Positions 7,948 through 12,440 of a stretch of DNA of 38,698 nucleotides are shown in pieces. Origin of the DNA: Herbinix sp. (GTDB taxonomy: Bacteria > Bacillota > Clostridia > Lachnospirales > Lachnospiraceae); NCBI GenBank assembly GCA_029239365.1, contig JAQZBA010000002.1:1-38698 (forward strand), read 5' to 3'. The notes under the pieces are model-generated. The model did not search any database, was not told where the DNA came from, and saw only the letters and a list, made by a program, of their open reading frames with translations. The position numbers and the translations under genes were made by a program. Each line of letters begins with the position of its first letter. Within the stretch, counting starts at the first letter, position 1.

Positions 7948-7971
7948 AATATGACTTTTCTTCTATTATAC

Positions 7972-8125
7972 TTGTCTTTTCTTCTGAATATACTTATCTT
8001 GTCTTCTGGTTATACCTGTCTTTTATTCTGAATATACTTATCTTGTCTTCTGGTCATACCAGTCATTTATTCCAGATATACTTGTCTTATTTTCTGGTCA
8101 TACCAATCATTTATTCTAAATGTGC
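7972..8125. repeat. Degenerate 22-bp tandem array (7 units) organised as 44-bp alternating dimers
   Basis: Seven gap-free 22-bp units starting at 7972, 7994, 8016, 8038, 8060, 8082 and 8104; odd units end CTGAATAT-like, even units end CTGGTCAT-like. Confidence 0.9.
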
Positions 8126-10009
8126 CTATCTATTCCCCTGCTTATCATTGTGGGCTTTCTTTTTCTCCTCAGTTTCGTTGATTTCATCGATGAAGCGTGA
8201 TGACTGGGAGGATTTATTATAACGCTCCTTCGCACTGAATATATAGAGATGCTCTCTGGCTCTGGTCATCGCAACATAGAACAAGCGACGTTCTTCCTCC
8301 AGATCAGCCTCCAAGACTGCCTTCTTATGAGGCGTGATACCTTCATTTGCATCAATGATGTAGACCACCTGAAATTCAAGCCCTTTGGAGCTATGCATTG
8401 TAGCAATCGTAACGCTGTCCGTTCTATGCTTCTGGCTCTCTGCCGCTTGCCTCTTTAACTCCTCACGATAAGCCTCCATATGTCCAAACCATGCGTCATA
8501 ATTCTTAAAGCCTCTTGCACTTTCTTGTAATTCATCTAAAATATCATAAAGCTCCTCCGCTTTGATCTTACGATACTCCGCGTATTCCTTCAGATAGTCC
8601 TCATAGCCAATCCCTCTCCGGATATAATTAACGGCGGCATAGGGATTCATGCCATCCAGAATACCAAGGTCATATTCAAACTGGGTGAGTCTCTCCAATA
8701 TCCAATTTTTATCTTCATAATAATCCTTTACATCGTCAAAATTAACCTCAGGACTATCAAAGCAATCACGGTTCACATATCTCTTAGGCCTGTTAATAAT
8801 CTGCAGATACAGACTCCGGTCCGTCCGTCCCATAGCAATTCTGATATAGGCGATGATATCTGAGGCAATCCAATGGTCGAACAGATTAGGTAGACTATCC
8901 TTCATCGTAAAGGGAATATTGTATTCCATCAATTTATGGATGAGAGCCCCGGAACCAAGGCTGGTACGGAGTAATATCGCCATCCCGGACAGAGCTATAC
9001 CTTGTTGGTTTAAACTCAGGATTTCCTGGGCCAAGCCTTGGTTTTCCTCCGAGAGTGTATTAAAATGTTTGATTATAATCTCATTGCCATCTTGTTTGAC
9101 CGGACTAATCTGCTTAGTAAAACGATGCTCATTATGATGGATGAGCTTACCCGCCGCCTTAATAATTGCCGGTGCGCTACGATAATTCTTATCCAGATAA
9201 ACTCTCTTGCAATCCGGATAATCCAGAGGAAAATTCAGCATAATCTCCGGCTTCGCACCACGAAAACGATAAATGGATTGATCATCATCACCAACAATAA
9301 ACAGATTATTCTGAGGCAAAGCCAGCATCCTAATAATATCGTACTGAACCATATTAATATCCTGGAATTCATCAATCAGGATGTAACAGAATTTATCCTG
9401 CCATAGCTTCAGAATATCCTTTCTCTTGGATAATAGCTCATAACTCAACAATAACATATCATCAAAATCAATCAGCTTTGATTTGGATAGGCTACTGTTA
9501 TAGTCCGCATAAATGTTACGAAACACCTCATCCGCACAGCTTATGGAATAATAGTTGGTAAGATCCATTCTGCTCCCTTTCACCAAGCTGATTTCCGAGA
9601 ACAGATCCGAGATGAATTCCTTCTCATCATCATATTCCAAGCCATAATGATGGATGATCTCCTTCATACAATGATACCTGACATCTTCCCTTGCAATATT
9701 GCTTGCATTCAGATGATATGCATAACGCAGCATTGTAAAAAAGATCGCATGAAATGTACCAAAGTTAACCTTTGTCTGCTTTGCTCCAATCATCCGGAGG
9801 AAGCGTTCCTTCATCTCGGTTGCTGCTGCTTTCGTAAAGGTAATCACCAGAATCTGATCCTCCGGTATGTTCTCCCGTTCTATGAGATTCATAGTCCGCT
9901 CTGTGATTACCAGGGTCTTTCCTGATCCGGGACCGGCAAGAACCAGCATTGGTCCATCCTTATGAAGCACCGCCTGCTGCTGTGCCTGATTAATCTGTAT
10001 TTTCATCAT
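8126..10009 (-). CDS. UvrD/Rep/PcrA-like superfamily 1 ATP-dependent DNA helicase
   Basis: AGPGSGKT Walker A, LIDEFQDIN, VGDDDQSIYRFRGA, TMHSSKGLEFQVV and EERRLFYVAMTRARE motifs. Confidence 0.95.
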   Translation of the reverse strand: MMKIQINQAQQQAVLHKDGPMLVLAGPGSGKTLVITERTMNLIERENIPEDQILVITFTKAAATEMKERFLRMIGAKQTKVNFGTFHAIFFTMLRYAYHLNASNIAREDVRYHCMKEIIHHYGLEYDDEKEFISDLFSEISLVKGSRMDLTNYYSISCADEVFRNIYADYNSSLSKSKLIDFDDMLLLSYELLSKRKDILKLWQDKFCYILIDEFQDINMVQYDIIRMLALPQNNLFIVGDDDQSIYRFRGAKPEIMLNFPLDYPDCKRVYLDKNYRSAPAIIKAAGKLIHHNEHRFTKQISPVKQDGNEIIIKHFNTLSEENQGLAQEILSLNQQGIALSGMAILLRTSLGSGALIHKLMEYNIPFTMKDSLPNLFDHWIASDIIAYIRIAMGRTDRSLYLQIINRPKRYVNRDCFDSPEVNFDDVKDYYEDKNWILERLTQFEYDLGILDGMNPYAAVNYIRRGIGYEDYLKEYAEYRKIKAEELYDILDELQESARGFKNYDAWFGHMEAYREELKRQAAESQKHRTDSVTIATMHSSKGLEFQVVYIIDANEGITPHKKAVLEADLEEERRLFYVAMTRAREHLYIFSAKERYNKSSQSSRFIDEINETEEKKKAHNDKQGNR

Positions 10010-10114: not shown

Positions 10115-10159
10115 CCATATAGAATATAATGACTGAGATAGCCAATATATTCTATATGG
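10115..10159. repeat. Inverted repeat (14-bp perfect arms)
   Basis: CCATATAGAATATA (10115-10128) / TATATTCTATATGG (10146-10159); lies between the gltX 3' end and the uvrD-like start; no strong T-tract. Confidence 0.6.
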
Positions 10160-10281: not shown

Positions 10282-11772
10282 TTATAAATTAGTACTTAGC
10301 AGATCAATCGCTTTTCTAATTCTTCGGAGACTTTCCTCTTTGCCGAGAATGTTCATAATCTCATATGCTCCACCCGGAGTAGACTGCTTGCCGGATACCG
10401 CAGTTCTTACCGGCCATAAACCCTGGCCATTCTTAATCCCCTGCTCTGCAATATAAGTCATGATAATATTCTCAATTGCTGCCTCACTATAATCCTCCAA
10501 CGCTTCGAACTTCGGAAGAAGCTCCTGTAATACCACAAGAGAACTCTGAGTATCTGTCTTCATCTTCTTATGTGTATACATCAGGTAATCATACTCCGGA
10601 AGCTCTTCAAAGAAATCGATGATATCCTTGATATCAACCAAAGTCTCAATTCGGGTCTTAACCAGCGCTGCAATCTTTCTATAATCCAAGTCCTTCTTCA
10701 CAACCTCTTTGATATAAGGGAGTGCCAGTCCATAGTATGTCTCAAACTCCATATTCTTCAGATATTCACCGTTCATCCAACGAAGCTTCACAATATCAAA
10801 TACTGCAGGAGCCTTGTTGATGTGAGTATAATCGAATTCGCTGATTAATTCCTCTAAGGACATAATCTCTGTATTATTTGCTGAACTCCACCCAAGAAGT
10901 GCTACAAAGTTAATAATTGCTTCGGATACAAATCCCTGCTCTAAGAGATCCTCATAGGAGGAATGTCCGCTACGTTTACTTAACTTTTTATGCTCCTCAT
11001 TCGTAATGAGAGGAAGATGCACATAGATTGGCTCCTCCCAACCAAAATCCTGATAAAGTCTGGTATATTTCGGTGTTGAGGATAGATACTCGTTACCTCT
11101 GACAACATGAGTAATTTTCATCATGTGGTCATCAATCACATTCGCAAAATTATAAGTAGGGAAGCCATCGGATTTGATTAAAACCATATCATCCAGCTCA
11201 TCATTATCAACGGTAATATTGCCAAAGATTGCATCTTGGAAGGTTGTAGAACCTTCAGTTGGGTTATTCTGACGGATTACATAAGGAAGCCCTGCTGCAA
11301 GCTTTGTCTCAATCTCCTCTTTGGATAGATGAAGGCAATGCTTATCATACTTTATAATCTCCTTCACTTCCTTCGCTTCCTCTTCCTCCTCGTCTGCATT
11401 ACCTACTGCAGTCTTCAGGGAAGCAAGACGCTCTTTGGTGCAGAAGCAATAATAAGCTGCACCCTTCTCCACCAACTGCTTTGCATACTCTAGATAAATG
11501 CCACTGGCTTGACGCTCGCTCTGAACATAAGGTCCATAGCCGCCATCCTTATCCGGACCCTAATCATGAATCAAGCCGGTTCCTTGGATTGTTCGATAAA
11601 TAATATCTACTGCACCCTCTACAAGACGCTCCTGATCGGTGTCCTCTATTCTTAGAATGAAGGTACCGCCTTCATGCTTTGCAATCAAATACTCGTATAA
11701 TGCTGTTCTAAGATTACCCACATGCATCCTGCCGGTCGGGCTGGGAGCAAATCTGGTTCTAATTCTGTTCAT
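10282..11772 (-). pseudogene. gltX: Glutamyl-tRNA synthetase reading frame interrupted by a single in-frame amber codon (TAG, 11560-11562)
   Basis: [25 protein letters not shown] (HIGH region) in 11560-11772; KKLSKRSG (KMSKS region) in 10282-11475. Both are in one frame: [41 protein letters not shown]. Whether it is truly a pseudogene is unknown. Confidence 0.85.
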
Positions 11773-11799
11773 CTTTCTCTTCCTCTCATCTCAATTAAT

Positions 11800-12309
11800 T
11801 TATTGCACGCCATTTTTGATACTCTCATAATAGCTATTAAAATCAAAAGTTCCATTCATCATCTGTTGTGCCATTGGCAGATAGAATACGAAGAAGAAAA
11901 ATACCAGAAAAATCCCTAGTATACCAACAAAGATCAATGTCCCCCTTGCCCAGTTCTTCTTCGTTGCTGGGGTAGTATTACTAAATGCCCATACAAATAA
12001 CATAACAATAAATACTAACCATCCAACATAAGGTATGAAAATTAATGCATAAGAACCTAACCAGTTGATAAAACTGATCGGTTTCTCCGGTGCACCAGAT
12101 GGCAATGCTCCAGTCATTGGATTAGCCATATTCATTGGATTTGCCATATTCATCGGAGTAGGTCCCTGTTGCATATTCGGTATATTATAAAACGGTTGTC
12201 CCGCCTCAGGCCTCGCCGCCTGTGTTTGTTCTCGGAAGGAAGCTCCGCAATACTCACAAAAATTAGCTGCTTCATTCTGTATCTGTCTTCCACAGTTGTT
12301 ACATCTCAT
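11800..12309 (-). CDS. Zinc-ribbon domain membrane protein
   Basis: MRCNNCGRQIQNEAANFCEYCGASF zinc ribbon, MNMANPMNMANPM repeats, two hydrophobic segments. Confidence 0.75.
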   Translation of the reverse strand: MRCNNCGRQIQNEAANFCEYCGASFREQTQAARPEAGQPFYNIPNMQQGPTPMNMANPMNMANPMTGALPSGAPEKPISFINWLGSYALIFIPYVGWLVFIVMLFVWAFSNTTPATKKNWARGTLIFVGILGIFLVFFFFVFYLPMAQQMMNGTFDFNSYYESIKNGVQ

Positions 12310-12373: not shown

Positions 12374-12440
12374 CATTACCTTGGTTGTTCACTTACAACA
12401 TTACCTTGGCTGTTCACTTGCATTACCTTGGCTGTTCACT
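12374..12440. repeat. Three direct copies of a 20-bp unit CATTACCTTGGYTGTTCACT
   Basis: Copies at 12374-12393, 12399-12418 and 12421-12440 (start spacing 25 and 22 bp), upstream of the zinc-ribbon gene. Confidence 0.9.

Follow-up and report, generated by a model that had tools for sequence, protein, structure and literature searches.

An in-frame amber codon at a conserved glutamate of glutamyl-tRNA synthetase in a draft Herbinix genome

Bacteria need glutamyl-tRNA synthetase (GluRS), and its gene, gltX, is normally essential. The bacterial form of the enzyme is described by the family model TIGR00464 and by solved structures such as 1j09 and 4gri. The gene discussed here lies in a window of 38,698 nucleotides, the whole stretch of DNA that was analysed. 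It has much in common with these described enzymes: a full-length family match, the D-E-G-P context, HIGH-type and KLSKR motifs, and a gene neighbourhood that is conserved in the genus. It differs in that a single TAG stands in frame at a glutamate that is invariant elsewhere.

Two other known situations resemble this one. The first is amber recoding, whether by the Pyl system, a suppressor tRNA or reassignment of TAG, and what the locus shares with it is an open frame running past the TAG. The second is the single-base consensus error, or the minority-strain base, of draft genomes. Here the likeness, which we draw from the consensus sequence alone, consists of a lone substitution, a gene that bears no further trace, and a fragmented and incomplete assembly. 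A literature search returned nothing directly relevant. We believe the second resemblance is the better guide, and that the TAG is probably a one-base discrepancy, either a base called wrongly or one from a minority strain that entered the consensus.

The gltX gene and its surroundings

The gene occupies 10282..11772 on the minus strand (496 codons plus a terminal TAA) and reads in a single frame with one interruption. Read across the stop it scores 490 bits to NCBIfam gltX_bact (TIGR00464), where the cut-off is 290, and the match covers positions 2-465 of 470. It also matches solved GluRS chains, 4gri and 1j09 among them. A bacterial GluRS has an uninterrupted frame; this one has a TAG at codon 71 (11560..11562, minus strand), in the context GAT TAG GGT. 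Translation of 10282-11772 gives exactly one internal stop and a protein that ends in LSTNL followed by the terminal stop, and it confirms the position and reading of the TAG in the initial annotation. That annotation had also claimed that the HIGH and KMSKS-region halves of the enzyme lie in one frame with no second lesion. This holds, since the HIGH-type motif and a KLSKR motif are both found in the same frame and codon 71 is its sole internal stop. The D-E-G-P segment, said to be conserved at this site in bacterial GluRS, is indeed common to the solved structures, 1j09 for example. The proposed origin of the TAG from GAG stands in part. One base change does separate the two codons and GAG is the likely direct ancestor, but this is unproven because the two closest gltX copies carry GAA and GAG.

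If the TAG terminates translation, the product would be the 5' part of the protein, 70 codons that include the HIGH-type motif (11563..11772, minus strand). Most of the enzyme would be missing, and such a product is unlikely to function. The earliest restart codon, a TTG at 11475, falls 3' of the HIGH-type motif. The longest possible restart product would run from codon 100 onward (10282..11475, minus strand), and it would probably be inactive as a class I synthetase because it would lack that motif and about 100 N-terminal residues.

Directly 5' of the ATG, in the leader at 11773..11799 on the minus strand, is a purine-rich, ribosome-binding-like stretch, GAGAGGAAGAGAAAG. Upstream of gltX lies an open gene for a zinc-ribbon membrane protein (11800..12309, minus strand), which adjoins gltX in several relatives too. 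Downstream is an open gene for a UvrD/Rep-like helicase (8126..10009, minus strand), which likewise adjoins gltX in relatives. Between roughly 3 and 24 kb in the window, gene order agrees with four relatives (G024, G004, G006 and G012), and the neighbouring genes are open. The surroundings of gltX are chromosomal, going by this gene order, and no relatives of this gltX were found in plasmid and viral collections.

The same region contains several repeats. Between gltX and the helicase gene is a 20-nt inverted repeat with a 5-nt loop (10115-10159), possibly a terminator-like hairpin. About eight 22-nt units, in diverged alternating copies, lie in the gap after the UvrD-like gene and slightly enter its 3' end (7966-8141). 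Upstream of the zinc-ribbon gene, at 12374-12440, a 20-nt repeat occurs three times with spacings of 22 and 25 (AGTGAACAGCCAAGGTAATG, minus strand); it was not found elsewhere in the assembly when up to one mismatch was allowed. An Rfam gathering scan of the window gave no match.

Conservation among relatives

Our alignment set holds 111 gltX relatives. The genome set supplied relatives at the level of genus and order, and named genomes supplied another 80 loci, which take in Herbinix sp., Mobilitalea sibirica and many Lachnospiraceae. The initial annotation had placed the stop at a conserved glutamate. The relatives bear this out: the column at codon 71 is Glu in 111 of 111 relatives (GAA in 63, GAG in 48). 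None of them has an internal stop, and none has TAG at this codon, which is one point against the idea that the codon is read through.

The rest of the gene can be judged at the 186 columns where at least 97% of the other sequences agree. Here the window's gltX deviates once, from E71 to the stop. Most genus members deviate at 0 to 2 of these columns, so the remainder of the gene looks fully constrained. We found no further lesion, no sign of relaxed constraint, and no other private change at the 186 sites. This bears directly on the argument that gltX is an old pseudogene that has been replaced by another GluRS. The stop does sit early in the gene, as that argument would have it, but there is no second lesion and the assembly holds no replacement gene. 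The lack of decay at conserved sites makes an old pseudogene extremely improbable, and we regard the idea as close to refuted.

A wider search covered 397 genomes of the family, using a query trimmed so as to avoid the terminal stop, and gave 368 matches in all. Among the matches listed, the window's gltX is the only copy that bears a stop. Flags for TAA, TAG or TGA in the gltX genes of relatives had hinted that interruption recurs. We reject this; the flags appeared because the alignments ran over the terminal stop, and the copies that were fetched have no internal stop.

TAG in the genetic code of this genome

Readthrough would mean that the TAG at codon 71 is decoded, as Glu, Gln or another residue, and that the cell depends on this for its GluRS. 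The frame stays open and fully conserved for 425 codons past the stop, as such a scenario would predict. The tRNA set is incomplete, so a suppressor tRNA might lie in the unassembled part. Both points leave room for readthrough; nothing speaks positively in its favour.

TAG is an ordinary terminator in this genome. Codon usage was scanned in 297 kb sampled from it, where 138 long ORFs end in TAA 99 times, in TAG 27 times and in TGA 12 times. RF1 is present (534 bits) with an open frame. Full reassignment should leave TAG depleted as a terminator or RF1 lost, and neither is seen. The scan also gave four candidate interruptions, of which only gltX is a true one. The three others were rejected when their sequences read as ordinary boundaries of neighbouring genes, and the 297 kb contain no other interrupted coding frame.

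The machinery for recoding was sought in the same draft. A profile search for PylS in the 81%-complete assembly gave only matches below the cut-off, at 27-29 bits versus 178. Matches also appear in 13 of 14 control genomes, 12 of the 13 being below the cut-off. No tRNA with a CUA anticodon is among the tRNAs found, a partial set from a genome that is 81% complete. The CUA anticodon-loop pattern matches 87 times, fewer than the 179 matches in the reversed control, so we see no signal of a CUA tRNA. The sole match that falls inside a tRNA, on that tRNA's own strand, reads Arg TCT rather than CUA. A separate tRNA-like locus, L063 (G000 C390:8670-8749, minus strand), scores 45.7 bits and has no ARAGORN call; its anticodon-arm loop is oversized, and it is possibly a decayed or unusual tRNA.

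The locus differs from described amber recoding in that RF1 is kept, TAG terminates normally, PylS is absent above the cut-off, no CUA tRNA was found in the assembled part, and no second gene in the sample is affected. Amber suppression or readthrough, which the initial annotation had offered as an option, is disfavoured on these grounds and we consider it very improbable. We give even less credence to its specific form, in which the sole GluRS could be made only if one TAG, at an invariant Glu, were decoded by means of a suppressor tRNA or of strong near-cognate misreading, either of them encoded in sequence that is missing from the assembly.

A consensus error or a recent mutation

The draft assembly comprises 433 contigs with a total of 3.8 Mb and is 81% complete. 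Its contig count and its relatives indicate that it is probably metagenome-derived (a MAG). Another proposal of the initial annotation was that a nonsense mutation is tolerated thanks to a second gltX paralog. Protein and profile searches of this 81%-complete assembly found no second gltX, and the other GluRS-family match in the genome is an intact GlnRS-like protein of 584 residues. With only one gltX assembled and the other match being GlnRS-like, the paralog proposal is unsupported. It is important to realize that a paralog, or a suppressor tRNA, could still exist because the draft is so fragmented and incomplete. Most genus members have one gltX. Two GluRS genes are present in G012, which may be a mixed bin. 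Another member of the genus, G016, is 98% complete and yet gives no match to gltX at E 1e-20, so drafts in this genus can miss gltX.

A genuine and very recent nonsense mutation in gltX would look identical in sequence to an error, with the same single lesion and the same lack of decay. Its lineage would be dying or slow, or would be rescued by a second gltX or something else in the unassembled 19%, or by low-level near-cognate misreading. The incompleteness of the assembly and the two GluRS genes of G012 are compatible with such a rescue. However, neither the protein nor the profile search found a second gltX, and most of the genus has only one. A null allele should also not persist, because the gene is essential, and this much is established knowledge. 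We judge a recent mutation to be rather unlikely, but a serious contender.

The one-base discrepancy is the explanation we prefer. The lesion is single and private, no other decay accompanies it, and the code is standard. A random change of one base in gltX creates a stop in about 4.8% of cases. On the assumption that the consensus is wrong at a rate of 1e-5 per base, a genome this large should contain about 1.5 false nonsense codons; the interruption in gltX was the only one seen in the 297 kb sample. Glu codon 71 would have become TAG through a miscalled base, or because the consensus settled on the base of a minority strain, and the living population would keep an intact, ordinary GluRS. 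Error and fresh mutation were both among the options first raised, and the data fit them, with one private change and otherwise full conservation.

A one-base error or a brand-new mutation is thus most likely what we see in gltX, and we do not favour a novel use of the genetic code. The practical value of the case is as a reminder that reads should be checked before recoding is called from a draft genome. Were the TAG both real and read as an amino acid, the making of an essential synthetase would hinge on the readthrough of a stop codon, and this would be a striking regulatory loop.
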